From contig CAIKHZ010000155.1 of assembly GCA_903827375.1 (NCBI GenBank), positions 1 to 64,000 of the forward strand: 64,000 nucleotides of DNA, in the 5' to 3' direction. The stretch is from Akkermansiaceae bacterium. GTDB taxonomy: Bacteria > Verrucomicrobiota > Verrucomicrobiia > Verrucomicrobiales > Akkermansiaceae. This document shows positions 33,636-52,334 of the stretch, piece after piece. The notes beneath the pieces are model-generated. The model ran no database searches. It saw only the letters and a list, made by a program, of their open reading frames with translations, and was not told where the DNA came from. How positions within the stretch are numbered: the stretch's first letter is position 1; each line of letters starts with the position of its first letter. The position numbers were made by a program, and so were the translations under genes.

Positions 33636-35660
33636 TCACCGGTCAGGACGGATGCGGATGAGCATGCAACCGTGGCGCGGGATGACCGCCTCAAACTTGT
33701 CTTTGGAAATCCCCAGATCTTTTTGCCGCCACAGGTCGCGGACCTTTTGCGGGCCGGTCAAGCCGAGGTCGGACCATTTGGCGCTGACCTTGGCCGGCCA
33801 GTAGGTCCGGTTGAAAAGACCGACCGCTTTTGAGCCGTCCTCCATGTCCTTGGCCCAGACTTCAAGCCCATCCTCGTGGGATATTCTGCTGGCCGCGCTG
33901 CCGAGCGGATCCTGGTCGACTTCCAGGACCTCATCATTGGTCAGCAAATTGATCGTGAATTCATCGGCCTGGCTCAGGTCGCAGCCCAGCAGCAATGGAG
34001 CCGCATGCAGGCACCACAGGCTGATGTGGGTATACTGCTCGTTAGGTGTCAGTTGGGTAGGTTTGGGGGCGTTTCCCCATCCCACGTAACCCACAACCAG
34101 CATGTCCGGATCGTTCCAATGACCCGGCCCCGCGAATTTCCTCCAAGGTTCCTGACTGAAGCCGATGCGATCCATGCACCACCAACGGTCAAAGATATCG
34201 CCAGTGGTGCGCCAGAACTGCGAAAGCTCCGCCCACTTGTCGGCCTGGTTGATATCCGCGGTGTTGGACAGAGTGAAAAGGATGTCGCGGCCGCAGTTGC
34301 GCAGGGCCTCGGACATGCGTTTGGTGTTGGGCACGTCAATCGCGTTCCAATCGTATTTCATGGAATCAATTCCCCAGGCGGCCCACTGTTTGGCATCCTG
34401 CACCTCGAAGGTGACTTTACCGACGGCGTGACCTTCCTTATCGATGGTGCCTTTGGCGTCATTGCCCGAGCCGCCGGTGTAACCGCCATAAGAAATCATC
34501 CATGGCGTTGAATAAGTGCCGATCTTGAGACCCAGGCCGTGCACGTAGTCGCAGAGGCCTTTCATGTCGGGAAACCTATCGTTAGGCTCGAGGGAGAAGT
34601 TAGGGGCTTTGCGGGCCTCGCCGGCAAGGCCCTTATCGGTGCAGGCCTGCCAGCCGTCATCGATGTTCATATAAGTCCAGCCGTGGTTGATCAGGTCGGT
34701 TTTGACAAACGCATCCGCAATCGCTCTCATCCGCGCATCTGTAATTTCACATCTCCAGCAGTTATAGCTGGCCCAGCCCATCGGCGGGGTCAACGCCAGC
34801 TTCTCGCCGACCACGATTTTCAACGGTTTGGTCGTTTTGCCTTTGGCGTTGGTGGCGGTCAACGTCACCGGATAGTCGCCGGCCTTGCGGATCGACCCGG
34901 TGATGAGGCCGGTCTTGGGATCCACCTTGAGACCGTCCGGCAGGCCTTTGGCGCCAAAGGTGAGCGGAGCGGTTCCGGTGGCGGGGATTTTGAAGAAGAA
35001 CGGGTTGCCGGGCCGCACGCCAAACACCCTGGCACCGGTGATTTTGGGGGCCGGGCCGGGCTTGGGAGTTAGAATCTCGGCCGGCTCGGGCCCTGCCACA
35101 CTGACCAGATCGCCGGATGTGTTGCTATCGAGCGAAATCCGCGCATCCGCCCAGTCGACATTGCAACCATTGTTGTCAGCGCTCTTGGCTATCAAGAGCA
35201 GACGTTTTTTTCCCGCCACGGGCACGTCAACGGGTTTGGCGGCATCCTTGTATTGCATTCTACCGCTGGACCAAAGGAGTTCTTGATCGCCATAAACCAA
35301 GACCTCAACTGCGCCTAACTGGTCGCCATTGTCATCGACGCCGACCGACGCCATGAACCTCTGCACACCGGGCTTGAGTTCAAGTTCGAACGTGCCGCTG
35401 ACATCATTGCCAAAAACAGCCTGAAAGCCTCGCTCATATATCTTGCCGGCTATCGTCAATGGCTTGCCATAGTAGCTCTTGTCTTTTTGCAAGCCAAAGC
35501 CTCCACTCTGCTCCACCTTGGTTAGATCCAAATCCGAAAGCCAGCAGACGCGGGCTTTTTCCGCGGCCCCTGCGGGCTCGGCGCCTGCGGCCAGCGCACT
35601 TTGAGGCAGCACGGATGCGCCAGCCAGTGTTATAATTGCGTTGAGTAGATGTGTTTTCAT
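33636..35660 (-). CDS. GH27 alpha-galactosidase with NPCBM and Ig-like domains
   Basis: A 674-residue exported enzyme. After a signal peptide (MKTHLLNAIITLAGASVLPQ) comes an NPCBM domain at about residues 35-185 (ARVCWLSDLDLTKV, ASVGVDDNGDQLG). A putative Ig (He_PIG) domain follows at about 200-280 (ATGTAPLTFGAKGLPDGL), then a GH27 barrel from about 288. Barrel markers are TPPMGWASYNCW, MNIDDGWQ, nucleophile block SMKYDWNA and acid/base block WRTTGDIFDRWW. The C-terminal sandwich ends RHGCMLIRIRPDR. It should release terminal alpha-galactose. It is very similar to 48146-50143 except in the signal peptide, which instead matches the GH43-like gene at 42380. Confidence 0.9.
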   Translation of the reverse strand: MKTHLLNAIITLAGASVLPQSALAAGAEPAGAAEKARVCWLSDLDLTKVEQSGGFGLQKDKSYYGKPLTIAGKIYERGFQAVFGNDVSGTFELELKPGVQRFMASVGVDDNGDQLGAVEVLVYGDQELLWSSGRMQYKDAAKPVDVPVAGKKRLLLIAKSADNNGCNVDWADARISLDSNTSGDLVSVAGPEPAEILTPKPGPAPKITGARVFGVRPGNPFFFKIPATGTAPLTFGAKGLPDGLKVDPKTGLITGSIRKAGDYPVTLTATNAKGKTTKPLKIVVGEKLALTPPMGWASYNCWRCEITDARMRAIADAFVKTDLINHGWTYMNIDDGWQACTDKGLAGEARKAPNFSLEPNDRFPDMKGLCDYVHGLGLKIGTYSTPWMISYGGYTGGSGNDAKGTIDKEGHAVGKVTFEVQDAKQWAAWGIDSMKYDWNAIDVPNTKRMSEALRNCGRDILFTLSNTADINQADKWAELSQFWRTTGDIFDRWWCMDRIGFSQEPWRKFAGPGHWNDPDMLVVGYVGWGNAPKPTQLTPNEQYTHISLWCLHAAPLLLGCDLSQADEFTINLLTNDEVLEVDQDPLGSAASRISHEDGLEVWAKDMEDGSKAVGLFNRTYWPAKVSAKWSDLGLTGPQKVRDLWRQKDLGISKDKFEAVIPRHGCMLIRIRPDR

Positions 35661-35686: not shown

Positions 35687-37111
35687 TTATTTATCGGTGT
35701 AGCTGGAATGCATTTTCCAGCCTTTGACCTGCTTGACCATGACATCCGCGCCGCTGCTGAACAGGCTGATGCCGAGATTCTCCGGGACATAGCTGCGAGC
35801 GGTGACGGCGGCCTGGCGGTCGTTGGCAAAGACTTCCACGAGGTTTTTATCGATGAACACGCGCAAGGTGAGGTCTTCGCCCGGCTTGAGTTCAAACAGC
35901 GCGTCAACTTTTCCAACCATCAACGTCTTGGTTGCGGGAATATAGGCGATCCTCACGCCGTTGGCTCCATCCTTGTCGCTCAGAACATCCAGACCGCACT
36001 CCTTGGCTTTCGGGTTTTTGATAGTGACTTCCAGCTCCAGCGTGTTGCCACTGAATTCCGTGAGCTTGTATGGGGCGCTGCTTTTCACGGCGATGTTTTG
36101 TTGCTGTTTTTCATCGTAGCGCAGCGATTCGAGTTCCTTCAACGGCTTGATGCGCAACACGCCGTCTTTTGGCAGCGACAACTCACGCGGCAGCGACTGC
36201 ACACCCGACGGCTCAATGGGCATGTTCAGCAGCCACGCCCACATCACGCGGCGGCCGTCCTTGGTCAGCAGCGATTCGGGCGCAAAGAAATTCCCGCCAT
36301 GCCACGTCATGCGGGCATGGAAGTCGGGCGAAAACTTCTCGTTTTTCCATTCGCCGAGGTAGTAGCGGCAGCCTAACTTATGGCTGATGCACAGGAGCAT
36401 CCACTTGTTGCCGATTTTGAAGAAGTTTGGACACGAGACGTCTTCGCATTGCATCACGTCGGGCATTTCGTGGTCGAGAAACAAGCCGAGATAATCCCAG
36501 TTTTTGAGGTCCTTCGACTTGAACAGTGTTGGCGGCTTGCCATTCCACGGATTGCCACCGGACACCGCGTAGTAAGAGTCCCCATCGAGCCAGGCGTCCG
36601 GGTCCCAGTTGGCGATCTTGTCGCCATCCTGGCCCGGCTTGATCTTCGGCTCGAGCGGATAGGACTTGCTCCACGTCTCCAGATTATCGTCCAGCGCGAC
36701 GGCCAGTTGATTGCGGCCAGTACCGTTCCCGTGATAGATGATGGCCGGTTGGCCTTCCTTGGTGAAAAATCCCGTGCCGCTGTACATGCCGTGGCCGATG
36801 GCTTTCTCGGTGAGCGTCGTCGGCTGCCACTTCCAGTGCACCATGTCGTCGCTGGACACATGGGCGAAATTGACGCCGTCGCATTTGTAAATATAGTGCA
36901 AGTGATACTTGCCCTTCCAGTAGAAGGCGCAATTCGGATCGCCCGGGTTGGCGTATTCCGGGCCGGGATGGACCAGGTGATAGGTCATCCAGTTGGGTGG
37001 CGGATTGGCCGGCATGGCCGGAATCACCTGGGTAGGCACCCCTTGTGCGCAGGGCATCATGGCGCTTGCCAGCAACCAGGCCGCCCTCATCACTTTTGTA
37101 ATGGGTTTCAT
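35687..37111 (-). CDS. GH32 exported enzyme, short form with shifted acid/base motif
   Basis: The protein is 474 residues from ATG 37111; a TTG at 37126 would add five residues. The signal peptide is followed by the linker VIPAMPANPPPNW shared with 47156 and 55130. The nucleophile block is GDPNCAFYWKGKYHLHY. The RDP-equivalent reads NWDPDAWLDGD, so Arg is replaced by Trp. The acid/base region reads CEDVSCPNFFKIG, with Glu four residues before Cys. The C-terminal sandwich has RVFIDKNLVEVFANDRQAAV. All parts of this subfamily are present, so it is the intact counterpart of the deleted gene at 47156. It likely hydrolyses fructosyl bonds. Confidence 0.86.
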   Translation of the reverse strand: MKPITKVMRAAWLLASAMMPCAQGVPTQVIPAMPANPPPNWMTYHLVHPGPEYANPGDPNCAFYWKGKYHLHYIYKCDGVNFAHVSSDDMVHWKWQPTTLTEKAIGHGMYSGTGFFTKEGQPAIIYHGNGTGRNQLAVALDDNLETWSKSYPLEPKIKPGQDGDKIANWDPDAWLDGDSYYAVSGGNPWNGKPPTLFKSKDLKNWDYLGLFLDHEMPDVMQCEDVSCPNFFKIGNKWMLLCISHKLGCRYYLGEWKNEKFSPDFHARMTWHGGNFFAPESLLTKDGRRVMWAWLLNMPIEPSGVQSLPRELSLPKDGVLRIKPLKELESLRYDEKQQQNIAVKSSAPYKLTEFSGNTLELEVTIKNPKAKECGLDVLSDKDGANGVRIAYIPATKTLMVGKVDALFELKPGEDLTLRVFIDKNLVEVFANDRQAAVTARSYVPENLGISLFSSGADVMVKQVKGWKMHSSYTDK

Positions 37112-37147
37112 ATCAATGGTTGTCAAGTTATGAACGGGATTGGGTGG

Positions 37148-39304
37148 TTATTTGTCGGTCCAGATGGATTTCAGTTCATGCACTTCGAGTTTCTCGAAGG
37201 TGACATTGCCGCCGGTCACGGCGACCTCGGCACCCAGCGCGGCCGGTTCGGGCATGCAGCGCAGCGGCACGTAGCACAGGCCGCCGCCGGCGTACACTTC
37301 GAAGACCGTCCGGTCGATGAAAACCGTCAGGTCGAGCTTGCCATCGCGCAGTGGCACCGTCACGCGGACACCACTCACGACGAGCTCCTGCAGCTCCGTG
37401 TTGTAAATGATCGGGATGCCGCGCAGGGTGAACCTCACCTCACCTTTGGCGGGTGGCGTGAAGGTGGCACGCAGTTCTAACATCTCGGCGGAGGCTTGCG
37501 CGAGCGGGTTGGGCGCGCCGGGTGCGAGGGTGAGCGCTCCCACAGTGATGGATTTGGCGCGCAGGGATTTCAATTCCTCCACCGGGGTCCACGCGAGGCG
37601 TGGGCCAGCAGGCGTGGAGCGCAGGGTGAGTTGGTTAGGCAGGCTGATTGGCTGGCTGAACGACAGAACTCTCTCATCGAGTTGCGGCCAGGCGAGTTGG
37701 ATGGTGCGGCCTTTGGGGTCATTTGAGAACGTCTGTGCCGCGACGTAAGCCATCCCGGGATGACCTTTGAGCATCGCGGTTTCGGGCGTGAAGGCCTTGC
37801 CGTCGAACGTGCCAACCCTATAGTCACCGCTAGCCGAAGTGAGCACCCATTTCTTGTTGCTGGCCACCCCGTCCACTGCGAGTTCAAAGATATCCGGGCA
37901 TTGATTAAACCCATCGCTGCGGCTTTGATACGTCCACTTCTTCAAATCCGGTGATGTGTGGAAGGCAATCCCCTGATCGGCTTGCACGGCCATCACCCAC
38001 TGCTTGCTCGGCGCGTGCCACAGCAGGCGCGGGTCGCGCCCGGGGTGCTTCTTCACCGGGTTGCCGTCGCATTCCTTGAACGTTCGCCCCGCGTCGTTGG
38101 AATAGACGATGCAGACGCCGCGGATGTAGCTGGTGAAGGCGGCCGCGATCAAATCGGCCGTGCCGTTTTTCCAACCGGCGGTGTTGGCGGTATCGAGCAC
38201 GGCACTGCCGGAAAAAAAGCTATCGCCCGGGGTGTGCGGTTCGACAAGAACCTGCGATTCCTTCCAATGAACCATGTCGCTGCTCACGGCGTGGCCCCAC
38301 TGCATGTTGAGCCCGTCAACATTGTAAGGGTTGCATTGATAGAAAAGATGATACTCGCCATGGGAAAACACCATGCCGTAGGGATTGGTATTCCAACCGC
38401 TGCGCGGGGAGAAATGCAGCTGAGCGCGCAATGGCTCATGGTAGAGGGTTGCCGCATCCACGATGGAATCGCTCTGCTCGATCGAATCCAGCACCATGGA
38501 ACCCGGGATCATTTTCTCCACCTGGAGCGTGAGGGTCTTGCCTTTCCACGCGCCCACATCCATGCACGCCCACCAGTCGGGCGGGGCATCCGCCAGCCCA
38601 ATCGTGTTTTTCGCCACCACTTTGCCATCGACGATGGTGTTGACGAGAAGGAGCGGGAACACGCCGTTCTTGATAGGAATGCGGAGATAACGCTTGTCGA
38701 TTTTGAAGTCGCGCTTGACGTCGGCAAACAATTGCAGTTTGGGAGATTTGGGGGCGCCTGGGGGTGGCTTGACGTCGGTTTGAACGATCTGGTCCACGTT
38801 GATATGCCCTTGCCAGGCCTGGTCATCAATCTGAATGACGGCGGACTGGCCGGCGAATTCAGCCACATTCCACGAACCCGGCACGGCGGTTTCGCTGTCA
38901 TCAGGCAAATCCTTAGAGGTGCCGGCCACCCGCACGACCTTGCCAGCGATGAGCAGGTTCATGCAGGATTCCAAGGTCTTGGTCCCGCCTATCAGGAAGG
39001 TGAGATACTTGCGCTCGATCTTGAACTCCGGCGAGGTGAGCGAACCGATGCCGCATTCCCCCGAACAGAATGAGCTGGCGAAGCCCTTGCCCTTGTACCC
39101 GTCCACAGGCGTGAGCAACTCAGGGCGCCACGGATTGGGCAGGCCGCCATGCGCCGGACCGGTAGCGAAGGCATCGCCGGTCACTTTCCAGTTGCCGAAA
39201 TTGGCGCCCTCGAAATCCGCGATGAGAATGTCATCTGCGGCCAAGCAGGTTGCCAACCCGGTCGCTAGCATGGCTGCCGTGATGCATGGCAAGTGGTAGT
39301 TCAT
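37148..39304 (-). CDS. GH32 pseudoenzyme: nucleophile and acid/base both replaced
   Basis: A full-length GH32 protein of 718 residues from ATG 39304 (an earlier in-frame ATG at 39343 lacks a signal peptide). The N-terminal beta domain spans about residues 25-290, the propeller about 295-560, and the C-terminal sandwich contains VFIDRTVFEVYAGGG. Against its paralogue at 50166, the nucleophile motif WNNDPNG has become WNTNPYG, with Asn at position 307. The acid/base motif FYECPDFF has become FNQCPDIF, with Gln at about 468. The third motif GRDPRLLW is intact. I read both substitutions directly in the DNA. The frame is undamaged, so the protein is probably made but should not hydrolyse; binding or regulation is possible. 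Confidence 0.88.
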   Translation of the reverse strand: MNYHLPCITAAMLATGLATCLAADDILIADFEGANFGNWKVTGDAFATGPAHGGLPNPWRPELLTPVDGYKGKGFASSFCSGECGIGSLTSPEFKIERKYLTFLIGGTKTLESCMNLLIAGKVVRVAGTSKDLPDDSETAVPGSWNVAEFAGQSAVIQIDDQAWQGHINVDQIVQTDVKPPPGAPKSPKLQLFADVKRDFKIDKRYLRIPIKNGVFPLLLVNTIVDGKVVAKNTIGLADAPPDWWACMDVGAWKGKTLTLQVEKMIPGSMVLDSIEQSDSIVDAATLYHEPLRAQLHFSPRSGWNTNPYGMVFSHGEYHLFYQCNPYNVDGLNMQWGHAVSSDMVHWKESQVLVEPHTPGDSFFSGSAVLDTANTAGWKNGTADLIAAAFTSYIRGVCIVYSNDAGRTFKECDGNPVKKHPGRDPRLLWHAPSKQWVMAVQADQGIAFHTSPDLKKWTYQSRSDGFNQCPDIFELAVDGVASNKKWVLTSASGDYRVGTFDGKAFTPETAMLKGHPGMAYVAAQTFSNDPKGRTIQLAWPQLDERVLSFSQPISLPNQLTLRSTPAGPRLAWTPVEELKSLRAKSITVGALTLAPGAPNPLAQASAEMLELRATFTPPAKGEVRFTLRGIPIIYNTELQELVVSGVRVTVPLRDGKLDLTVFIDRTVFEVYAGGGLCYVPLRCMPEPAALGAEVAVTGGNVTFEKLEVHELKSIWTDK

Positions 39305-39345: not shown

Positions 39346-42345
39346 TTATCTTGGTTTGCCTTTCGCGACGTTATCCGCAGCACCGATGCTGACGTCATCG
39401 AACGCGACGTCGCGGTTTTCGCCTGGCAGCACAACGGTCGGGGTGCACAGTGAAAGCCGGTAGGTGCCCGCGGCGGCCACCGTGAAATATTGCCGGTGTT
39501 GCTTCCACCAAACCGGAGACTTGATGGTTCTCGCGTCATTGATGAACTGGGGATCCGCTCCGACGGTTAGATCGAGCAGGCTGCCGTCGTTCTGGCTGAG
39601 AGCGTCCAGCTTGGATTTATCCGGCGGAACGCTCAGCGGCTTGCCAAGTCTAACCACTGCTTTGGACTTGGCAACCCGTTCACCGCCCGACACCCAGAAG
39701 GTGATCCGATAAGTGCCGGGCGCGAGCGTCACGTCCTGATAGGCGACACCATCGCCCGTGGGCATGCCCCATCTTCCGGGGTAGCCGTTCGGGTTGTCAT
39801 TGTGCGCATGGTAGCGGTTCACCTTGCATGGCTCCAACAGCATCCAGTCGTCGCAGAGGTTGGTTTCTTCGGGCCATTTCTTGTTCCACTGGTTGTTCTC
39901 GAACCCGCCGTTCTTGACCATTTCGGGCGGGAGTTTGACCTCGCCGAGATCGGCCTGGCCGCGCGTCACATCGGCCGGGATGGATTTTCCGGCATATGCG
40001 GGGTTGCAGGACAGGACGTCGACCTCATAGTTGCCGACGCTCGCGGTAAATGAAAACATGCCGTCCTCCTTGGTGATGAATTGTTGGGGAATGCTCGTCT
40101 GGAGGGTGACATAGGCCCCGGCCAGCGGCTTGCCGCCAGCCATCACCTTGCCAGATACGGCATAGACCGGGGTGCTCTCAAACGCGACGGCGATGGTCAT
40201 GTTGGCGGTGGCCGGCGCGAAAGTATAACTGGTGGCGGCACCTTTTTCAGACCCATTCACCAGCACGCTTTTGACTTTGTAGCCGGTCTGGGTCCGGATC
40301 GAGCAAGTTGGCGGAGCGCTCCCGGAGGCGACCACGGTCACGCCGGGCGGGGTGATATCCCCGCCGGTGGCGGCGGTGGCGGTGAGTGAGAAATTCTGTT
40401 TGAAACTGGCTGCGATGGTGTGATCGGTTCTCACATCAGTGAACGTGAAGCTGTGCCGCTCGCCCATCGGCTGGCCGTCGACGAGCACCACGGCATTGTT
40501 CACTCCATCCGGCGTGATGCGGAATGTCCTGGACTCACCCTGTTTGACTTGGGCTTTGCCGACCGGGCTAATCGCGCCACCTTTGCCATCGACGGATGCC
40601 GTGATGGTGTAAACCGGAGGGGATTGGCCGAAAGTCGCCGCGATGGTGTGGTTGGCAGTCAACGGATCAAATGTATAATACTTGACGGATTCGACCGACA
40701 CGCCGTCCACCTTGACGTCCTGGATGTAAAACCCTTTCCCGGGTGTGATGGCATACAGCGCCGTTTTGCGTTTGAGATAGGTGGTCTTTCCCACCGGGCT
40801 GATCGTTCCGCCGGATCCGGCTGAGGCGGTGATGGTGAATTTCGCCGCGACGTCATCCACAAAGAACGGGGATGCGGGCAGGCCATCGGGTTTGCCATCC
40901 ACGGTCACCTTGTTATAGAGATTGGCACCCAGGGGGTTGGTCCAGTTGGCGTATGCCAGTTTCTTGGGAGCGGCCACTGAAGGTGAGGACATTTCTATGG
41001 TGTTGCCAGCTATCTTGGTATCGGCCCAATACCACACACCATCCGCACCGGCGATGGAAAACAGGGCCAGCTTGGTGCCGCTTGCCTCCTTGGTTGGCTG
41101 ATAGGGAGTCTTGGCTCCGACCATCAGGCCGCTGCCGGCGTGCTCAAACGTGCAGACCGCCTTGTTGCCAGTGACTGTCACATCCCTGAGGATCGGACCG
41201 CTGGTCTCGGCTATATCCCGCCCATAGTCGTTCTTAAGCGCCCATAGCGCCAGGCGTTCGCCCACATCCAGCTTGTCTTTGGGGTGCCAGTCGTTAGACT
41301 CGCCAATATCGAGGGCTGAGGCCATTCCCGAGTGTGGCAGAGCCATGGCATTCGCCTGCTGCAGGCGGGTATCGGCGGCCCACCCACCCTGGTTCAGCAC
41401 CGGAGTCGGGCCTTTGGGCTGGAGCTCCGCGGTGTCTCCCCAGTTGGCTATTTGCACGAAATAGAACGCGAAATCATCCAATCCAAAGAGCCGCTTATAC
41501 CCTTGATAGAGGCCTTTCATTTTAAGATAATAACTATCTTCCGACTGCACGTTGTTTTCGCTGTTCTCGCCCTGATACCAGATCATGCCCTTGAGGCCAA
41601 ACGGCGCTAGCGGATGGATCAGGGTGTTGGCAAGGCAAAACGGCCCGGTCATCACCTCCATCTTGAAAAGCGGCGCGAGCACCGGAATATCGACGCACCC
41701 GTCCTGGATCAACCATGGGTCAATGCGCGTGCCACCCACCGAATTGCCGATCAGGCCAATGGGAATGTCCCCCTTCTGATCCAGATAGATTTTTCTGGCA
41801 AAATAGAATGCCACGGCCGAGAACCCGCCGATGTTGTCCGGGGCGCAAACTTTCCACGTGCTTTTGATAGAGCGAAGCGGGTCGGGAGCGACGAATGTTC
41901 CGCCGTTATCCACCCACATCCAGCGGATGCCGGGATAGTTGGCGGCGGCGACATCGCCATCGTGGCCGCCGCCAAGGTTATGAGCCATGTTCGATTGCCC
42001 GCTGCAGATCCAGACGTCGCCCACCACCACGTCGGTGACGCTCAGCGTGTTGGATCCAGCCTCGGTGATGGTCATGGCGGCCCCGGCGGCCTTGGCTGTC
42101 ATCGCATCGAGCGCCAAGCGCCAGTTGCCCTGGGCGTCGGCGGTCGTGGTCTTCGTCTGACCGTTGAAAACCACCGTAATTTCCTTGCTAGGCGTGGCGG
42201 TGCCCCAGACTGGGCACGGTTTGCCGCGCTGTAATACCGTGTGGTCGCTGAACAGTCCGTTGGCTGCCACAGTCGCATGCGCTGTCGATGCCAAAGTCAT
42301 CAAACCCGTCGCGCATAGCAACGCTGTCTTGGCTAGTGATTTCAT
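39346..42345 (-). CDS. Multidomain SASA-type acetylesterase with three B-repeats and a C-terminal binding module
   Basis: A 999-residue exported protein. The esterase domain (about 1-497) carries VAANGLFSDHTVLQRGK, nucleophile ICSGQSNMAHNLGG and GESNDWHPKDKLDVGERLA. Three InlB-type B-repeats follow at about 498-573, 578-645 and 647-720 (PVGKTTYLKRKTALYAITPG). A carboxypeptidase-regulatory-like domain lies at about 725-795, and a C-terminal carbohydrate-binding-like jelly roll from about 800 (EMVKNGGFENNQWNKKWPEE and DVTLAPGTYRITFWVSGG). It shares the esterase and first repeats with 27711-31325 but carries a different tail. Confidence 0.85.
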   Translation of the reverse strand: MKSLAKTALLCATGLMTLASTAHATVAANGLFSDHTVLQRGKPCPVWGTATPSKEITVVFNGQTKTTTADAQGNWRLALDAMTAKAAGAAMTITEAGSNTLSVTDVVVGDVWICSGQSNMAHNLGGGHDGDVAAANYPGIRWMWVDNGGTFVAPDPLRSIKSTWKVCAPDNIGGFSAVAFYFARKIYLDQKGDIPIGLIGNSVGGTRIDPWLIQDGCVDIPVLAPLFKMEVMTGPFCLANTLIHPLAPFGLKGMIWYQGENSENNVQSEDSYYLKMKGLYQGYKRLFGLDDFAFYFVQIANWGDTAELQPKGPTPVLNQGGWAADTRLQQANAMALPHSGMASALDIGESNDWHPKDKLDVGERLALWALKNDYGRDIAETSGPILRDVTVTGNKAVCTFEHAGSGLMVGAKTPYQPTKEASGTKLALFSIAGADGVWYWADTKIAGNTIEMSSPSVAAPKKLAYANWTNPLGANLYNKVTVDGKPDGLPASPFFVDDVAAKFTITASAGSGGTISPVGKTTYLKRKTALYAITPGKGFYIQDVKVDGVSVESVKYYTFDPLTANHTIAATFGQSPPVYTITASVDGKGGAISPVGKAQVKQGESRTFRITPDGVNNAVVLVDGQPMGERHSFTFTDVRTDHTIAASFKQNFSLTATAATGGDITPPGVTVVASGSAPPTCSIRTQTGYKVKSVLVNGSEKGAATSYTFAPATANMTIAVAFESTPVYAVSGKVMAGGKPLAGAYVTLQTSIPQQFITKEDGMFSFTASVGNYEVDVLSCNPAYAGKSIPADVTRGQADLGEVKLPPEMVKNGGFENNQWNKKWPEETNLCDDWMLLEPCKVNRYHAHNDNPNGYPGRWGMPTGDGVAYQDVTLAPGTYRITFWVSGGERVAKSKAVVRLGKPLSVPPDKSKLDALSQNDGSLLDLTVGADPQFINDARTIKSPVWWKQHRQYFTVAAAGTYRLSLCTPTVVLPGENRDVAFDDVSIGAADNVAKGKPR

Positions 42346-43397: not shown

Positions 43398-45515
43398 TCA
43401 GGGTGTGCCGCTGGCGGCCGCGGGTTTTTCCATGACCACGCCATCCAGGCCGAAGAAATACTTGGCATTCTTCGAGGCTGGGTTGGCGCCCACCACTTCC
43501 ACGCGCAACTTGTATTTGCCTTCGCCCGGCTTAATCACACCCAAGTCAATCGCCGCCGCGGGCTGCACCGAGTCTGCATAACCGTCGAATTTAGTGCTTA
43601 CCGCCTTACCGTTGACGGTGAAACGCAACTCGCCATAGTCCGGGGCCTGCGTGGCGTAGAGGAGCAGCTTGCGCGGCTGATCATCGGGTGCCGGCCATTC
43701 GATTTCCACGAAATCGCCGATAGCGCTGGCGGCGACTAGCAATTGTGCGCCGCCGCTCCAGCGCTCGGCACCAAAAGGTTGCATGGCTTGTGGGGTTGCA
43801 GATAAGCCGGCAGACTTCGCCACCACGGTCATGCCTTCGCATTCGATCACGCCGGGTTTGCGCGGCACTGGTGCCGCGACGACTGCGGGCCGCACGGCTC
43901 CGGGCACCACGGCAATGGGCAGGGCGGCTGCATGGGGTTGCGGCGGCACGTTAGATACAATTCCGGGGAACGCATACCAATAAGTCGTGGCAGCGTAGAT
44001 GAGCGTTGTCGGTACCCACGAAATCAATTCCATGTCGAACTGCAATGAATGCTGAAACGGAATGCCGTCCAAATTTCGAGTGCGGGTGGAGGTGTTGTGG
44101 CCCTGGGTCATCTGCTGATCTATTCTCGGTTCGCCGCAAAACGGTGTGTTATGAGCCGGCTTGGGTGCGTAGGAATAGCCATAGTAATCCTCGGTGCCGG
44201 TGCCGATATGCGAGGGGAACGCTTCGCCGTCCACAAAGATCTTCTCGTCGCCTTCGCCATACCAGGTGGCTACGGGATTGAAGAGCGCCAGAGTGTCACC
44301 CACATAGACGCCGCGGCCGGTGAGTGTCACAAAGTTCCAGTCACGTAAGGGCGGCGTCTTGAGATCCGCCTCATGGTGCCACACCGCGTGAAAGTGCATC
44401 GAGCGCTCATCCCATGCCCACGGACTCACCGTCACGTTCAGCGAGAACTTGAGCGGCTGGGCGGCCAGGTTGACCAGCGTGAGCTGCGCGTTTTTCTTAT
44501 ATGGCATCACCCAGCGGCAGACCATCGTGCCATCCAGATCCACCGAGCGATACCAATTGGCGACCTTGTTGAGGCCGACGCCGCTGCCGAAGAAGTCGCT
44601 CGCCGGACACCAGACGGTGTCTTCGCCGTCGCAGGTCATTTGCAGGACCAATGAGCGCAACGCGAGTTGCGCAGAAGCCAGTGGGTCGGCAGGCACACGG
44701 AGTTCCAAGCGCCGCACTGCCGCAGGACCAGGCGGAAGTTTTAGCAGATATTTGCCGCCTGCGGTGAGTTCTATCTCCTTCGCAAGGATCCGTCCTTGCG
44801 GCTTGTCCGGACGCGCCGGCAACGCGCTATTCACCCGTTCGACCGTGGGCCGAGCCGCATCCAGAGCAGCGCCTGTATATGTTTCCACCCGGGCCCCCTC
44901 AGCATAGGTGCGATAATTAATCTGATAGTAACGCGCGCCATCGCTGCCTTCGTCCCACGTGACCTTGCAATGCTTGGCATAGGGAATGGGGAGGTAGAAG
45001 TTGTTTCCGCCATTGCCATTGGCATGATAGCCCGGATGGGGTTGAGCCAGCGGTGGACCGATCTTCAAATCTCCGCTGAGCAGGTCATAGGCGGGAAAGG
45101 CCAGTGCCGGCTCCGTCGCGCCATCAAAGTAGAACCGCAGCGAGCCCTTCTTGTTGCCGCCGGTAGTCAACCAGAAACGCACAATGCAGCCCGGACCATC
45201 GGCATCCATCATCACTTTCTCGGTGCGGCCCTGGTTCGTCTCGGTGCGGATGAATTGGTTTTGATCGCTGTTGGCGAACCAGCCTGGTTTGTCCGGAGCG
45301 ACCGTCGCGCGATCATAACTGCTGGCCTGCTTGCAGGTATAGGCGGGATCAGGCCAGCGGGCTACGGAATCATAACTCACCATCTCCTCCAGCAGGGATT
45401 GAATACTCACCACTGGCGGCTTGGCCAACGCCGGGGTGAAGCCGCAAAGCGACAGCACCACGACACCGGACGCCATGCTTGCAGCACGAAGAGTGCCATC
45501 AGTAACAATTTTCAT
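43398..45515 (-). CDS. GH172 (DUF2961) enzyme, candidate alpha-D-fructofuranosidase / difructose dianhydride I enzyme
   Basis: The protein is 705 residues from ATG 45515; a GTG at 45527 overlaps the preceding stop. A signal peptide ends near TPALA. The DUF2961 domain (about residues 40-400) has FWLTTGGNKKGSLRFYFDG and the signature GTGTEDYYGYSYAPKP with its key Glu; FDMELISW holds a second acidic candidate. A beta-sandwich tail (about 560-690) resembles a binding domain. Characterised GH172 enzymes include alpha-fructofuranosidases that make or open difructose dianhydride I, and alpha-D-arabinofuranosidases. Beside this many GH32 genes the fructose-type activity is the better guess, but this is inference. 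Confidence 0.8.
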   Translation of the reverse strand: MKIVTDGTLRAASMASGVVVLSLCGFTPALAKPPVVSIQSLLEEMVSYDSVARWPDPAYTCKQASSYDRATVAPDKPGWFANSDQNQFIRTETNQGRTEKVMMDADGPGCIVRFWLTTGGNKKGSLRFYFDGATEPALAFPAYDLLSGDLKIGPPLAQPHPGYHANGNGGNNFYLPIPYAKHCKVTWDEGSDGARYYQINYRTYAEGARVETYTGAALDAARPTVERVNSALPARPDKPQGRILAKEIELTAGGKYLLKLPPGPAAVRRLELRVPADPLASAQLALRSLVLQMTCDGEDTVWCPASDFFGSGVGLNKVANWYRSVDLDGTMVCRWVMPYKKNAQLTLVNLAAQPLKFSLNVTVSPWAWDERSMHFHAVWHHEADLKTPPLRDWNFVTLTGRGVYVGDTLALFNPVATWYGEGDEKIFVDGEAFPSHIGTGTEDYYGYSYAPKPAHNTPFCGEPRIDQQMTQGHNTSTRTRNLDGIPFQHSLQFDMELISWVPTTLIYAATTYWYAFPGIVSNVPPQPHAAALPIAVVPGAVRPAVVAAPVPRKPGVIECEGMTVVAKSAGLSATPQAMQPFGAERWSGGAQLLVAASAIGDFVEIEWPAPDDQPRKLLLYATQAPDYGELRFTVNGKAVSTKFDGYADSVQPAAAIDLGVIKPGEGKYKLRVEVVGANPASKNAKYFFGLDGVVMEKPAAASGTP

Positions 45516-45523
45516 ATTGGCAA

Positions 45524-47089
45524 TCACCAGGCATCCGTTCGGAACGGCGAGGCAGGCAAACCGTCCTTGTTATACAAATTGCAGCCATCGGGGTTCATGG
45601 TGAAGGCATATCTCACAGCCACCGGCTGCGGCACCGCAGCGCTGGATACCACCACCGTCTTGCCGTCAATCACCGCATCCGCCCACACCCATTTCTTGTC
45701 CTCGCCGGCAATGGCGAAACGCGCAAGTTTGCCGCCCTTGTCCTCAAGCGTCGGGTTGCGGCCCTCCTTCTTGCCCACCATCAGACCGGTTCCGATGTGG
45801 TCGAATGCCAGCAGCGCCTTGCCGCCCTGAATCTTGAGCGCCTTGAACAAGGGTCCCGAAACCTCCAACTGCTTCTGGCCATAGTCGCGATTGAGCGCCC
45901 AACGGGCGAGGCGCATGCCGACATCGAATTTGTTTTTCGGGTGGATGTCGTCCTTTTCGGCGAGCGGCACGGTATCGATGATGACGGCCATGCCTGTGTT
46001 AGGAATGGTGAGCGACTTGGTTTGCGCCTCGCGCAGTTTGGCCCAGCCATCGCCGCCGGCGGGGTCTTGCGACGCGGCGGTGAAATTGGCAAGCTGGACG
46101 AAATAGAACGGAAAATCCCCCTGCTTCCATTGGTTGCGCCAGCCGCCGATCAAGGCGCGCATCTTATGGTAATAGGTTTCACCTTCGCCGCCGTTGCCTT
46201 CGCCCTGATACCACAGCGCTCCTTTGATAGGTGTACGCACGATGGGATGGATCATGGCGTTATACATTCCGCTCCAGCGCTCCGTGGCAGGATTGCCCGG
46301 GATGACCGGTGGCTGGGTCGGCGGGGTGCCGCTGGCCAATTGCTTTTTGGTCAGTGCAACCCATGCCTCCATGTCAGCAAGTGCCTTGGGCATTTGGGTG
46401 CTTTGAAAGAGCTTGATCGCGTCCTTCTGGCCGGTCAGATCCGCCTTTAACTCATCCACCATAGCGAGGCCCTCGGCGGGCGTCCACGGCTCAATCTGGG
46501 TACCGCCCCAGTTATCATCGACAATGCCGATGGGCACGCCGGATTTGGCGAGAATTTCCCGGGCGAAATAGAAACCCACCGCTGAGAATCTGCGGGCCGA
46601 GTCAGGCGTACACACCTGCCATGGGGTTTCGGTCGTGGGTTCAACTTGCGGCTCTGCTGCCCGTTCATGATTGAACTTGATGCGGCGAATTTTCGGCAAG
46701 TCGGCCGTCTTGAGGTCGTCCTGCAGACCGATGCAGCCACCCAGTTCCATCTCCATGTTGGATTGGCCACCGCACACCCAAATATCCCCTACGATGACAT
46801 TCTTCAGCGTCAGGCTGTTGTTGCCCTTGACTAATAGCTCAAGATTTTCACCGGTTTTGATCGTCGGCAAGCTGAGCGCCCACTGGCCCTTGGCGTCGGC
46901 CTTGGTCGCGCCGGTTTTACCTGATAGAGTGAGGCTCACCGCCTCCCCTGCGTCGGCCCAACCCCAGACGTGCACCGGCAGGTCGCGCTGCAGCATCATG
47001 TTGTCGGTGAAGATTTTCGGCAGGCGCACGTCCGCGGAGGCGGGCATGGTGGCGAGCGCGCTGGCGAGCAGAATCAGGCGGTGACGCAT
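45524..47089 (-). CDS. SASA-type carbohydrate acetylesterase
   Basis: A 521-residue exported enzyme with a short signal peptide (about 19 residues, ending MPASA). The family blocks are VRLPKIFTDNMMLQRDL, nucleophile VCGGQSNMEMELGG, AEKDDIHPKNKFDVGMRLA with the Asp/His pair, and the C-terminal NKDGLPASPFRTDAW. It is the third member of the plain esterase group with 1414 and 9804. The stop overlaps a GTG that could start the GH172 gene, so the two are probably translated together, with the esterase removing acetyl groups before the glycosidases act. Confidence 0.88.
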   Translation of the reverse strand: MRHRLILLASALATMPASADVRLPKIFTDNMMLQRDLPVHVWGWADAGEAVSLTLSGKTGATKADAKGQWALSLPTIKTGENLELLVKGNNSLTLKNVIVGDIWVCGGQSNMEMELGGCIGLQDDLKTADLPKIRRIKFNHERAAEPQVEPTTETPWQVCTPDSARRFSAVGFYFAREILAKSGVPIGIVDDNWGGTQIEPWTPAEGLAMVDELKADLTGQKDAIKLFQSTQMPKALADMEAWVALTKKQLASGTPPTQPPVIPGNPATERWSGMYNAMIHPIVRTPIKGALWYQGEGNGGEGETYYHKMRALIGGWRNQWKQGDFPFYFVQLANFTAASQDPAGGDGWAKLREAQTKSLTIPNTGMAVIIDTVPLAEKDDIHPKNKFDVGMRLARWALNRDYGQKQLEVSGPLFKALKIQGGKALLAFDHIGTGLMVGKKEGRNPTLEDKGGKLARFAIAGEDKKWVWADAVIDGKTVVVSSAAVPQPVAVRYAFTMNPDGCNLYNKDGLPASPFRTDAW

Positions 47090-47155: not shown

Positions 47156-48028
47156 TTATTTATCGGTGTAACTGGACTTCATTTTCCAGCCTTTGACCTG
47201 CTTAACCGTGGCATCGGCGCCGGTACTGAACAGGTTGATGCCGAGATTTTCCGGGGCAAAACCGCCGCGTGCGGCGAGGGCCGCCTGGCGGTCATTGGCA
47301 AAGACTTCGACGAGGTTTTTGTCGATAAACACGCGCAAGGTGAGGTCTTCGCCCGGCTTGAGTTCAAACAGCGCGTCAACTTTACCAACCATCAAGGTCT
47401 TGGTCGCGGGAATATAGGCAATCCAGTTTTTGAGGTCCGTGGATTTGAAGAGAGTGGGCGGTTTACCACTGCCCGGACTGCCGCCGGAGAGCGCATAGTA
47501 ATTGTCCCCATCGAGCCACGCGTCCGGATCCCAGTTGGCAATTAAGCCGCCGTCCTGGCCAGGCTTGATCTTGGGCTCGAGCGGATAGGACTTGCTCCAG
47601 GTCTCCAGCTTGTCGTCCTGCGCGATGGCCAGTTGATTTTTTCCCGACCCCCAGCCGTGATAGATGATGGCGGGTTTGCCTTCCTTGGTGAAAAAGCCGG
47701 TGCCGCTGAACATCCCGTGGCCAATGGCTTTCTGGGTGAGCGTCGTCGGTTGCCACTTCCAGTGCACCATGTCGTCGCTGGAAACGTGGGCAAAGTTGAC
47801 GCCATCGTTGTTGTAGATATAGTGCAGGTGATACTTGCCCTTCCAGTAGAAGGCACAATTCGGATCGCCCGGGAACGCATTGCCCGGGCCGGGGTGGATC
47901 AGATGATAGGACAGCCAGTGCGGCGGCGGCGTGGCCGGCATGGCCGGGATTGCCACCTCTTGCGCGCTGGCCATCAGGCCGCCTCCCAACAACCCTGCCA
48001 GCACCGTCAATTTTGTTATCTGTTGCAT
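47156..48028 (-). pseudogene. GH32 short-form gene with an in-frame deletion of about 182 codons
   Basis: The 290-residue product starts normally: a signal peptide, the linker AIPAMPATPPPHW, nucleophile block GDPNCAFYWKGKYHLHY and RDP-equivalent NWDPDAWLDGD. At about residue 202 STDLKNW is joined directly to IAYIPATKTLMVGK. In the intact paralogue at 35687 these two points are separated by 546 bases, so about 182 codons are missing, including the EDVSCP acid/base block and two or more propeller blades. The C-terminal sandwich (VFIDKNLVEVFANDRQAAL) is intact. At most two or three bases of homology are shared at the junction near 47423. The product should lack hydrolase activity. Confidence 0.82.
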
Positions 48029-48145: not shown

Positions 48146-50143
48146 TCAATTGGCAGGACGGATGCGGATCAGCATGCAGCCGTGGCGCGGAATAACCGCC
48201 TCGAACTGGTCTTTGGAAATCCCGAGATCTTTTTGGCGCCACAGGTCGCGGACCTTTTGCGGGCCGGTCAACCCGAGGTCGGACCATTTGACGCTGACCT
48301 TGGCCGGGAAGAGGGTCCTGTTGAACAACCCGACCGCCTTCGAGCCGTCCTCCATGTCCTTGGCCCAGACTTCCATACCGTCCTTGCTTGAGATGCGACC
48401 CGCCGCGCTGCCGAGCGGATCTTGGTCAACTTCTAGCACCTCATCGTTGTTGAGCAGATTGAGGGTGAATTCATCGGCCTGGCTCAGGTCGCAGCCGAGC
48501 AGCAATGGAGCCGAAAGCAGGCACCACAGGCTGATGTGGGTGTATTGCTCGTTGGGTGTTAGATAAGTGGGCCGCGGTTTCCCCCAGCCGACGTGGCCAA
48601 CCACGAGCATGTCCGGGTCGTTCCAGTGGCCCGGCCCGGCGAATTTTTTCCACGGATCCTGGGCGAAGCCGATGCCAGACATGCTCCACCAGGTGTCGGT
48701 GATGTCGCCGGTGGTGCGCCAGAACTGGGCGAGCTCCGCCCACTTGTCGGCCTGGCCGAGGTCGGCGCTGTTAGACAGGGTGAGGAGGATGTCGCGTCCG
48801 CATTTGCGCAGGGCCTCGGACATGCGCTTGGTGTTAGGCACGTCATTCGGGCGCCAGTCATATTTCATGCTATCAAATCCCCACGCGGCCCATTGCTTGG
48901 CATCCTGCTCCTCGAAGGTGACTTTGCCGTTTTGCCCTTCGTTATCGATAGTACCCTTTGCATCATTGCCCGAGCCGCCGGTGTAACCGCCGTAGGAGAT
49001 TTTCCAGGGTGTCGAGTAAATGCCGATTTTCAGGCCGAGGCCGTGGACGTAGTCGCAAAGGCCTTTCATGTCGGGAAACCTATCGTTAGGTTCGAGCGAG
49101 AAGTTAGGGGCTTTGCGGGCCTCGCCAGCACGTCCCTTGTCGACGCGGGCCTGCCAGCCGTCATCGATGTTCATATAGGTCCAGCCGTGATTGATGAGGT
49201 CGGTTTTGACAAACGCCTCGGCAATCGCCCGCATCCTCTGTTCGGTGACTTCACAGTTCCAACAATTATAACTGGCCCAGCCCATCGGCGGGGTCAGCGC
49301 CAGCTTCTCGCCGACGACGATCTTCAACGGTTTGGTCGTTTTGCCCTTGGCGTTGGTGGCGGTCAGGGTCACTGGATAGTCGCCGGCCTTGCTGATAGAA
49401 CCGGTGATGACGCCGGTCTTGGCATCGACCTTGAGTCCGTCAGGCAGGCCCTTGGCACCAAAGGTGAGTGGGGCGGTTCCGGTGGCGGGGATTTTGAAGA
49501 AGAACGGGTTACCGGGGCGCACGCCAAACACCCTGGCACCGGTGATTTTGGGTTCGGGACCGGGCTTGGGGGTGAGAATCTCAGCCGGCTCGGGGGGGGG
49601 GAAGCTGACCAGATCGCCGGTTTTGCCGCCGTCTAGCGCAATCCTAGCATCCGCCCAGTCGCCGTTGCCGCCACCCCCGGGATTGATGGTTTTAACCAGC
49701 AAAAGCAGGTGTTTTTTGCCCACTAAGGAGACATCCACGGGTTTGGCGGCGTCCTTAAGTTGCATCTTACCGCTGGACCAAAGGAGGTCATTATCGCCAT
49801 AGACAAAGAACTCGACCGGGTCAATGAAATCCCCTTGGTCATTCACGCCAACCGATGCCAAAAACTTCTGCACCCCGGGTTTGAGGTCGAGTTCAAAAGC
49901 GCTGTAACCCTCACCAAAAAAAGTCGTCTGAAAACCCCGTTCAAAGGTTTTGTCGGCGATGGTCAATGGCTTGTCATTACAGGTCTTGTCTTTGACAGCG
50001 GGTTTCCAAGTCCCACAAGACTGCTGCACCTTGGTGAGATCCAAGTCTGAAAGCCAGCAGACGCGCGCCGTTTCCGCAGCCCGCACTGGAGCGGCCATGA
50101 CCATAGTCAGGGAAACTGTTAGTGATAAGGGTAAGTGTGTCAT
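48146..50143 (-). CDS. GH27 alpha-galactosidase with NPCBM and Ig-like domains
   Basis: The protein is 665 residues from ATG 50143; the frame continues to 50224, overlapping the previous gene, but only this start gives a signal peptide (MTHLPLSLTVSLTMVMAAPV). Domain order is as in 33636: NPCBM (ARVCWLSDLDLTKV, ASVGVNDQGDFID), Ig-like He_PIG domain, then the GH27 barrel with TPPMGWASYNCW, nucleophile SMKYDWRP and acid/base WRTTGDITDTWW. A run of ten G bases in the linker encodes a Pro triplet. The mature sequence is close to the 33636 paralogue, pointing to a fairly recent duplication. Confidence 0.9.
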   Translation of the reverse strand: MTHLPLSLTVSLTMVMAAPVRAAETARVCWLSDLDLTKVQQSCGTWKPAVKDKTCNDKPLTIADKTFERGFQTTFFGEGYSAFELDLKPGVQKFLASVGVNDQGDFIDPVEFFVYGDNDLLWSSGKMQLKDAAKPVDVSLVGKKHLLLLVKTINPGGGGNGDWADARIALDGGKTGDLVSFPPPEPAEILTPKPGPEPKITGARVFGVRPGNPFFFKIPATGTAPLTFGAKGLPDGLKVDAKTGVITGSISKAGDYPVTLTATNAKGKTTKPLKIVVGEKLALTPPMGWASYNCWNCEVTEQRMRAIAEAFVKTDLINHGWTYMNIDDGWQARVDKGRAGEARKAPNFSLEPNDRFPDMKGLCDYVHGLGLKIGIYSTPWKISYGGYTGGSGNDAKGTIDNEGQNGKVTFEEQDAKQWAAWGFDSMKYDWRPNDVPNTKRMSEALRKCGRDILLTLSNSADLGQADKWAELAQFWRTTGDITDTWWSMSGIGFAQDPWKKFAGPGHWNDPDMLVVGHVGWGKPRPTYLTPNEQYTHISLWCLLSAPLLLGCDLSQADEFTLNLLNNDEVLEVDQDPLGSAAGRISSKDGMEVWAKDMEDGSKAVGLFNRTLFPAKVSVKWSDLGLTGPQKVRDLWRQKDLGISKDQFEAVIPRHGCMLIRIRPAN
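49592..49601. repeat. G10 homopolymer inside the GH27 gene
   Basis: Ten consecutive G on the plus strand (C on the coding strand) fall in the linker between the NPCBM and Ig-like domains and encode part of PPPEPAEIL. The paralogue has AGPEPAEIL and no such tract. Slippage here would shift the frame before the catalytic barrel. Confidence 0.8.
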
Positions 50144-50165
50144 AAAATGTAAGAGTTCTGGTGGA

Positions 50166-52334
50166 TCAATGCTTCGACCAGATGGACTTGAGTTCGTGCA
50201 CTTCGAGTTGCTGGAAGGTGACATTGCCGCCGGTTACGGCAACCTCGGCACCCAATGCCGTCGGATTGGGAGTGATCGGCAGCGGCACGTAGGCCAGGCC
50301 ACCGGCGGTGAACACTTCATAGGTGTTCCGGTCGGTGAAAACCGTTAGGTCGATCTTGCCGTCACGCAGCGGCGCCGCAACGTTGTGGCCACCCACGGCG
50401 AGCGTATGCTGCTCCGTGTTGTAAGTGATAGGAATGCCGCGCAAGGTGAATTTCACCTCACCCTTGGCCGGTGGCGTGAAGGTGGCGCGAAGCTCTAACA
50501 ACTCAGCCGAGGCCTTGGCGAGCGGGTTGGGCGCATCGGGGGCGAGGTCCAGTGCTCCACAATCGATGGATTTGGCGCGCAAGGATTTCAATTCATCGAC
50601 CGGGGTCCAGGCCAGGCGCGGGCCCTCGGGGGTGGAGCGCAGGGTGAGTTGGTTAGGCAGGCTCATGGCCTGGTTGAAGGGCATGCCGAACGTTGCATGT
50701 TGGAGCCAGCCGATTTGGATGGTGCGGCCCTTGGGGTCATGCGAAAATGTCTGTGCCGCGTAGAATCCACCGCCCTGATGGCCTTTCAATTTTGGAGTTT
50801 CGGGCGTGAATGTTTTGCCGTCGAAGGTGCCGATCATATAATCACTGCTCGCTGCGGTGAGCACCCATTTCTTGTTGGTGGCGACGCCATCGACCGGGAG
50901 TTCGAAGAAATCCGGGCATTCATAAAACCCCTCGATGCGGCTTTGGAAGGTCCAGGTTTTCAGATCCGGCGAGGTATAGAAAGCGACGCACTGTTTGCCG
51001 GTGCCTTCGTCATACACGGCCATCACCCACTGCTTGCTCGGTGCGTGCCACAGCAGGCGCGGGTCGCGGCCGCCGTGTTTCACCACCGGGTTGCCTTCGA
51101 AATCGGTAAAGGTGCGGCCCTTGTCGTTGGAATAGACGATGCACTCGCCGCGGCCGGTGCTGGTGAAGGCGGCCACTAGCAAATCGTCGGCACCTGTTTT
51201 CCAACCGGAGGTGTTCGCCTTGTCCACTATGGCGCTGCCGGAGAATACCGCGTCGCCCGGGGCGTGCGGATAGATGCCGATGGGCAGTTCCTTCCAGTGA
51301 ACCATGTCGCTGCTCACGGCGTGGCCCCAGTGCATGTTACCCCAACCCCAGCCGTAAGGATTGAGTTGATAGTAAAGATGATACTCGCCCTGGGAGAACA
51401 CCATGCCGTTGGGATCGTTGTTCCAACCGCGCCGCGAGGAAAAGTGCAACTGGGCACGCAATGGCTCGCTGTACAGGTTGGCCGAGTCCTTGATGGTATC
51501 GCTCTGCTCGATCGAATCCAGAAACTTGGAACCCGCTACCATCTTTTCCACCTCGAGCGTGACGGTTTTGCCGTTCCAGTCGCTCACGTCCATGAAGGCC
51601 CACCAGTCAGGCGTGTCGTCGGCCAGTCCGATATCATTGCGCACCGCGAGCTTGCCATCAACGAGTGTGGTGACGGGACGGGCGGGCACGCCGTTTTTGA
51701 TCGGGATGTTGAGGTAGCGCTTCTCGATTTTGAAGTCCCGTTTGGCATTGACGAACAATTGCAGTTGCGGGGATTTGGGGTCGGCCGGGGCAGGCTTGAC
51801 GTCGGTTAGGACAATCTGGTCCACGTTGATATGCCCCTTGCCTTGATCTCCTGAATTGTCAGTGATTTGGATGATCGCGGACTTGCCGGCGAATTCCTCC
51901 ACATCCCACGAACCCGGAGCAAGCGTCTCGGTGCCCTCGGGCAAGTCCTTGGATGCACCAGCCACACGGACCACCTTGCCACCGACGAGAAGGTTCAGGC
52001 AAACTCGTTCCACGTCCTGGCTTCCTCCTATCAGGAATGTGATGTACTTGCGTTCGATCTTAAACTCCGGCGAGGTGAGCGAACCGGTTCCCCCGTCGCC
52101 CAGATAGTATGAGCTGGCGAAGCCCTTGCCCATGAAGCCGGTCACGGGCTTCGTCAGGTCGGAGCGCCATGGGTTGATCAGTCCGCCATGGGCCGGTCCG
52201 GCACCGAAGGCGTCGCCGTTAGGTTTCCAGTCGCCGTAGGTGTCACCTTCAAAGTTGGCGATGACGATGGGTTCGGCGGCGTGGGCGGAGAGAGCCACAA
52301 AGGCTGATAGGATTGCGGGTATCAGTGGTTTCAT
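50166..52334 (-). CDS. GH32 fructan hydrolase with complete catalytic triad
   Basis: A 722-residue exported GH32 enzyme with a signal peptide ending near SAHA. An N-terminal beta domain (about residues 22-290; IVIANFEGDTYGDWKPNG, a block common in levanase-type proteins) precedes the propeller. Catalytic motifs are complete: RRGWNNDPNGMVFSQG with Asp307, GRDPRLLW, and GFYECPDFFEL with Glu472. The C-terminal sandwich includes VFTDRNTYEVFTAGG. This is the only GH32 protein in the window with all three canonical motifs, so it is the best candidate for the main exported beta-fructofuranosidase. It is the active counterpart of the pseudoenzyme at 37148. A repeated intergenic element lies upstream of its start. 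Confidence 0.9.
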   Translation of the reverse strand: MKPLIPAILSAFVALSAHAAEPIVIANFEGDTYGDWKPNGDAFGAGPAHGGLINPWRSDLTKPVTGFMGKGFASSYYLGDGGTGSLTSPEFKIERKYITFLIGGSQDVERVCLNLLVGGKVVRVAGASKDLPEGTETLAPGSWDVEEFAGKSAIIQITDNSGDQGKGHINVDQIVLTDVKPAPADPKSPQLQLFVNAKRDFKIEKRYLNIPIKNGVPARPVTTLVDGKLAVRNDIGLADDTPDWWAFMDVSDWNGKTVTLEVEKMVAGSKFLDSIEQSDTIKDSANLYSEPLRAQLHFSSRRGWNNDPNGMVFSQGEYHLYYQLNPYGWGWGNMHWGHAVSSDMVHWKELPIGIYPHAPGDAVFSGSAIVDKANTSGWKTGADDLLVAAFTSTGRGECIVYSNDKGRTFTDFEGNPVVKHGGRDPRLLWHAPSKQWVMAVYDEGTGKQCVAFYTSPDLKTWTFQSRIEGFYECPDFFELPVDGVATNKKWVLTAASSDYMIGTFDGKTFTPETPKLKGHQGGGFYAAQTFSHDPKGRTIQIGWLQHATFGMPFNQAMSLPNQLTLRSTPEGPRLAWTPVDELKSLRAKSIDCGALDLAPDAPNPLAKASAELLELRATFTPPAKGEVKFTLRGIPITYNTEQHTLAVGGHNVAAPLRDGKIDLTVFTDRNTYEVFTAGGLAYVPLPITPNPTALGAEVAVTGGNVTFQQLEVHELKSIWSKH

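Follow-up and report, generated by a model that had tools for sequence, protein, structure and literature searches.

A predicted GH32 pseudoenzyme beside triad-intact paralogues in a carbohydrate-degradation cluster of an Akkermansiaceae bacterium

Introduction

Hydrolysis by retaining glycoside hydrolases of family GH32 requires a nucleophile and an acid/base residue. Paralogues that lack the catalytic motifs are already known from plants, in which many GH32 proteins have no NDPN and defective invertases may, according to one proposal, regulate their active counterparts by competition (PMC11821009). One example is Nin88 of tobacco (PMC11821009), which is changed at Trp47 and Asp239. Catalytically dead variants have also been engineered. 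In BT1760, the exchange E221A led to an approximately 4,000-fold loss of activity with strong levan binding (PMC6560043), and levan binding of the D42A variant was measured by ITC, with the ligand located in the active site within the utilisome (PMC7618045). Titles of PDB entries further describe D54N of a levan fructotransferase with sucrose or levanbiose, E201Q of an FEH with 1-kestose and E203Q of cwINV1 with sucrose. In another glycosidase family, leaf beetles contain GH28 pseudoenzymes, which are inactive paralogues within the pathway of the active ones and for which a role is backed by RNAi (PMC6549527). Thus, GH32 pseudoenzymes of plants and pseudoenzymes of other glycosidase families are established, while no report of a bacterial GH32 pseudoenzyme was found in the literature searched, which leaves most subscription journals outside.

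Here, we analysed a GH32 gene (P) in a stretch of 64,000 nucleotides from an Akkermansiaceae bacterium (contig CAIKHZ010000155.1 of assembly GCA_903827375.1; hereafter the window). Two long GH32 paralogues serve for comparison, namely A, which is encoded in the same window, and T, which is encoded in the sister species G059. An original prediction, made from the window alone, had described P as an intact GH32 protein in which nucleophile and acid/base are both replaced by amides, and had pointed to inactive GH32 relatives in plants, which the literature cited above confirms.

Results

The reading frame of P is uninterrupted over 718 codons from an ATG at position 39304 (ORF list), with an alternative TTG start 13 codons 5' of it. 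Profile scans detected the domains GH32N (Pfam PF00251, E 3.3e-45) and GH32C (PF08244, E 1.2e-7), so that the predicted open frame with intact domains was recovered. P and A can be aligned end to end with 68% identity over 720 columns (BLASTP), and both Pfam and NCBIfam scans class P with fructosidases. The nearest PDB entries are GH32 proteins, by sequence as well as in a Foldseek search with a predicted model of modest overall confidence that is better in the core. P therefore belongs to GH32 by sequence and by fold, with profiles for both propeller and sandwich. Its N-terminus shows a hydrophobic run after the ATG followed by an A-rich end, which is consistent with export of a secreted-type protein. 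The adjacent accessory domain recurs inside GH116-type proteins of the same genome. This suggests, short of proof, a carbohydrate-related role of the domain. A search of the PDB with its profile revealed no significant relative by sequence, and the pLDDT of the AlphaFold model is below 50 in this region, too low for a reading of the fold.

P is embedded in a cluster that extends from 57 kb to about 25 kb of the window, with the main ORFs on the minus strand and many of them overlapping or less than 50 bases apart (Table 1). The cluster comprises several GH32s, two NPCBM-melibiases, GH36-like and GH43-like genes, SASA esterases, a DUF2961 gene and GH127. From SASA2 via P to the second alpha-galactosidase, all genes are on one strand with gaps of −71 to 41 bp. 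Further GH127, GH31, GH32, esterase and sulfatase genes follow below 25 kb, and a histidine kinase, a response regulator and parts of a sugar ABC transporter are encoded on the opposite strand from 57.5 kb. This gene content fits a presumptive cluster for the degradation of fructans and galactosides. One of the GH32 genes (47156-48028) has an in-frame deletion of 546 bases (182 codons) compared to its intact orthologue in the sister species, with 98.5-100% protein identity in the flanks. Two large proteins of the carbohydrate cluster gave no Pfam match.

Table 1 Features of P and of the surrounding cluster. Positions refer to the window; the order of domains in P is given in amino acids.
Feature	Position	Strand	Description
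P, GH32	37148..39304	(-)	718 aa: signal peptide-like N-terminus; accessory domain ~20-185; linker 186-286; five-bladed propeller 287-565; C-terminal beta-sandwich 566-718
N-terminal accessory domain of P	38750..39247	(-)	lowest stem-branch omega among the domains of P
Nucleophile motif of P	38375..38395	(-)	TGG AAT ACC AAT CCC TAC GGC = W-N-T306-N307-P-Y309-G; active form W-N-N-D-P-N-G
Asp424 codon of P	38033..38035	(-)	RDP, transition-state stabiliser, kept
Gln468 codon of P	37901..37903	(-)	CAA; acid/base Glu (GAA) in A
A, GH32 paralogue	50166..52334	(-)	D/D/E triad intact; ~11 kb upstream of P, same strand
Short GH32	35687..37126	(-)	479 aa; 21 bp downstream of P
SASA-type carbohydrate esterase	39346..42345	(-)	41 bp upstream of P
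DUF2961 protein	43398..45527	(-)	sequence kin of solved difructose dianhydride I synthase/hydrolase and exo-alpha-D-arabinofuranosidase
NPCBM + melibiase (GH27-type) alpha-galactosidase	48146..50224	(-)	overlaps the end of A
Second NPCBM + melibiase alpha-galactosidase	33636..35660	(-)	26 bp downstream of the short GH32
GH32 of the Ser/Met subfamily	55130-57235		
GH32 of the Ser/Met subfamily	25320-27683		
Large protein	6149-9766		1205 aa
Large protein	18475-21705		1076 aa

Active GH32 enzymes possess a triad consisting of the Asp of WxNDPNG, the Asp of RDP and the Glu of EC. At these positions, P has Asn307, Asp424 and Gln468. Direct reading of the motifs thus corroborated the predicted exchanges relative to A, with G-R-D424-P common to both proteins and NQ468CPD in P instead of YECPD in A. 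The exchanges D307N, E468Q, N306T and N309Y each correspond to a single-base change from A to P (GAT>AAT, GAA>CAA, AAC>ACC and AAC>TAC, respectively), and no replacement carboxylate was seen near position 307.

To place these changes among conserved sites, 47 propeller columns with at least 95% conservation among 54 triad-intact homologues were considered. P retains 43 of them, including RDP, and differs at four (N306T, D307N, N309Y and E468Q), while its nearest active paralogues show no or one departure. All four changed sites are within nine catalytic-motif columns (N306, D307, N309, G310, R423, D424, P425, E468 and C469; p = 7e-4), a p-value that is only a guide because the columns were chosen from general GH32 knowledge after the pattern was known. 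With a looser conservation threshold W331G, G538A, G546V and others appear as well, of which Trp331 is near the pocket, and Y521V and N550S are found in P and also in the triad-intact T. The change in P is consequently wider than the two catalytic carboxylates, and a change limited to two residues is ruled out by these additional motif and pocket departures. The original prediction of exchanges at exactly the two catalytic positions, with no decay elsewhere, was therefore too strong, all the more so as the propeller as a whole is accelerated (see below).

Asn and Gln at both sites, for which the original prediction had proposed a search, were encountered in one orthologue. It is encoded in a separate Verrucomicrobia MAG, G059 (contig WBXD01000028; C28:17537-19690, L046:17537-19693), is 98% identical to P and matches it codon for codon at the four changed motif sites, with 12 non-synonymous and 7 synonymous differences elsewhere in the gene. 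The genomes can be aligned collinearly along 11.4 kb, with 97% nucleotide identity. Sequence error and simple decay had been named in advance as findings that would speak against the prediction; the second MAG has neither Asp nor Glu at the motif sites and the orthologue no frameshift. The synonymous divergence of the pair is 0.014, the lowest value in a neighbourhood that otherwise shows 0.05-0.21, which suggests that the P segment was recently exchanged between the two species.

Across the genomes searched, 73 from the genus and 387 from the order, no other close homologue with the state of P was detected, so that orthologues are found in two closely related species only. The exact WNTNPYG motif at the DNA level was absent from the 383 other genomes of a class sample, the list of which excludes G059. 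A survey covered 139 GH32N domains, most of them from one verrucomicrobial genus, including three fragments that lack the nucleophile region. P and the G059 orthologue were the only readable ones without Asp at the nucleophile position. A D-to-N exchange as a common GH32 variant is ruled out by this survey. The acid/base column is variable in divergent GH32 subfamilies, and its loss alone is for this reason less telling than the loss of the nucleophile.

The close homologues that were retrieved keep Asp and Glu, save one divergent clade. Besides P, two groups with altered triads were observed. A separate GH32 clade of three genes in the genus (L033, G057:C131:7545-9191; L067, G105:C582:251-1897; L076, G032:C33:10723-12366; 57-95% identity, pairwise omega 0.14-0.20) keeps the nucleophile Asp, and in all three RIDTP replaces RDP and DELCGC replaces EC. 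The clade may be a conserved second pseudoenzyme lineage, or its catalytic residues may have shifted; since RIDTP and DELCGC may hold shifted acidic residues, it is not counted as such a lineage here. The second group is a subfamily that includes the short GH32 downstream of P, two further genes of the window (Table 1) and surveyed loci of the genus. At the canonical position of the acid/base its members carry Ser or Met, and an acidic residue is conserved three positions before this column (xEDVSCPNF, SEDDMCPSF), which gives the impression of a displaced acid/base.

In the phylogenetic tree, T is the sister of P with 100% support and keeps the triad. T was not found in the genome of the window. 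In G059 it sits just downstream of the short GH32 and is apparently split across two contig ends (L042, 11706-12071, and L045, 1-1797). As Y521V and N550S are common to P and T, the simplest reading would be that remodelling began first and that the catalytic loss followed the split of P and T.

Selection on P was analysed using a codon branch model of the GY94 type, which was written for this analysis and applied to nine sequences. The stem branch to P and its orthologue showed an omega of 0.37 compared to a background of 0.15, about the value at which triad-intact verrucomicrobial GH32s evolve. Equality of stem and background was rejected (LRT 23.35, p 1.4e-6), and so was a stem omega of 1 (LRT 22.4, p 2.2e-6). 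The stem branch of P was thus under purifying selection, and neutrality across the full branch is ruled out. Stem omega was 0.23 in the N-terminal domain, 0.38 in the linker, 0.46 in the propeller and 0.38 in the sandwich. The value of the N-terminal domain does not depart significantly from the background. Compared with the active copies (background 0.11), propeller evolution was accelerated about fourfold; the p-values of these domain-wise tests are optimistic because branch lengths were fixed from the full fit. Furthermore, at sites that are otherwise fixed P shows 26 changes of its own, 19 of them in the propeller; for two control paralogues, the count is 6 of 18 (Fisher p 0.014).

The present-day pair shows a different pattern. 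At the tips, omega between P and its orthologue was 0.43 and neutrality was not rejected (LRT 2.8, p 0.095), and the pairwise value of 0.53 is not distinguishable from 1. Five neighbouring genes and A gave 0.10-0.26 between the same two species (valid pairs only; the GH27 pair was left out). In the C-terminal domain, omega between the two orthologues is about 1. The dN/dS comparison proposed in the original prediction thus supported constraint along the stem, whereas the present-day pair is compatible with neutrality. No stop or frameshift was found in P across roughly 0.77 neutral-scale substitutions per codon. If a neutral final phase (about 26% of the stem) were the source of the raised stem omega, about 4.5 stops would be expected, of which none is seen (p 0.011). 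The stem spans time before and after the catalytic loss, and these results consequently favour retention without proving selection after the loss.

Discussion

P combines clear homology to GH32 enzymes with the loss of essential catalytic residues and can therefore be classed as a putative pseudoenzyme. Judged from the GH32 mechanism and from mutants made in other members of the family, the lack of nucleophile and acid/base should abolish double-displacement hydrolysis, and we consider P to be catalytically inactive with high confidence. The triad-intact verrucomicrobial GH32s (A and the G059 copy at C106/L045) share its domain order at 68-75% identity, but keep D/D/E. Nin88 and other defective invertases of plants are, like P, GH32-fold paralogues without catalysis. 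However, Nin88 is a eukaryotic cell-wall protein changed at Trp47 and Asp239, whereas P is bacterial, is changed at nucleophile and acid/base, carries an extra N-terminal domain and is part of a degradation operon. The engineered GH32 variants are changed at the same catalytic positions and partly by the same D-to-N and E-to-Q exchanges. They carry a single laboratory mutation in an otherwise intact pocket, while in P both exchanges are natural and accompanied by N306T, N309Y and W331G. The GH28 proteins of leaf beetles are likewise inactive glycosidase paralogues alongside active ones in one pathway; they differ from P in family, fold and kingdom, and their function was demonstrated, whereas that of P is putative.

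A GH32 gene was duplicated inside a putative fructan/alpha-galactoside operon, as the paralogues A, T and P show. Probably after its divergence from T, P lost its nucleophile (D307N), its acid/base (E468Q) and neighbouring active-site residues, and with them presumably GH32 hydrolysis. Along the stem branch it was retained at full length and under constraint, above all in the N-terminal domain, and we propose that, next to active paralogues, it would most likely bind carbohydrates or hold substrate without cleaving it. Engineered GH32 mutants of the nucleophile or acid/base hold sugar, which makes non-hydrolytic binding by P plausible. We lean towards the view that P is a dead, exported GH32-fold protein kept for a non-hydrolytic role, rather than a product of recent relaxation. 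It may further be speculated, with considerable doubt, that a duplicated fructanase acquired the D-to-N and E-to-Q exchanges that crystallographers use as traps and is now a dedicated fructan-holder, feeding or positioning chains for its active sisters. Without Asn306, Asn309 and Trp331, the −1 site of P may not hold fructose in the usual pose, and sugar binding at this site may have been changed or lost.

A credible, although less probable, explanation is that P became redundant after the duplication, given A, T and other GH32s, so that its propeller is no longer constrained and its open frame survives only as a leftover of a gene whose loss is pending. The acceleration of the propeller, the omega of the orthologue pair, the restriction to two close species and the deletion in the neighbouring GH32 gene are all in line with such decay, whereas a stem omega far under 1 in all domains, the absence of stops and frameshifts and the confinement of losses at near-invariant propeller sites to the catalytic motifs argue against it. 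We regard it as improbable that P is an altered enzyme with a remodelled pocket, which would use Asp424 and other groups, for example for slow transfer on an unusual substrate. The fold and Asp424 are retained, at least six changes in the pocket region resemble remodelling, and other GH32-type subfamilies of the genus also lack the canonical Glu, yet have in common an acidic residue three positions before it; but P has no carboxylate near position 307, no other readable GH32 domain of the survey is devoid of the nucleophile Asp, and an engineered acid/base mutant keeps only about 1/4,000 of its activity. An artefact at the motifs is very unlikely even for a fragmented draft of 370 contigs, since these four codons recur in a separate MAG that has 19 other base differences in the gene, which excludes sequencing error unless both assemblies go back to one set of wrongly called reads.

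Returning to the favoured non-hydrolytic role, a natural double D/N and E/Q GH32 protein next to active copies offers a test of the reuse of glycosidases as glycan-binding proteins in bacteria. Dead glycosidase paralogues are readily annotated as enzymes, which calls for caution when fructan degraders among the Verrucomicrobia are counted. If P binds fructan, it would be a bacterial addition to the defective invertases of plants and the GH28 pseudoenzymes of beetles.
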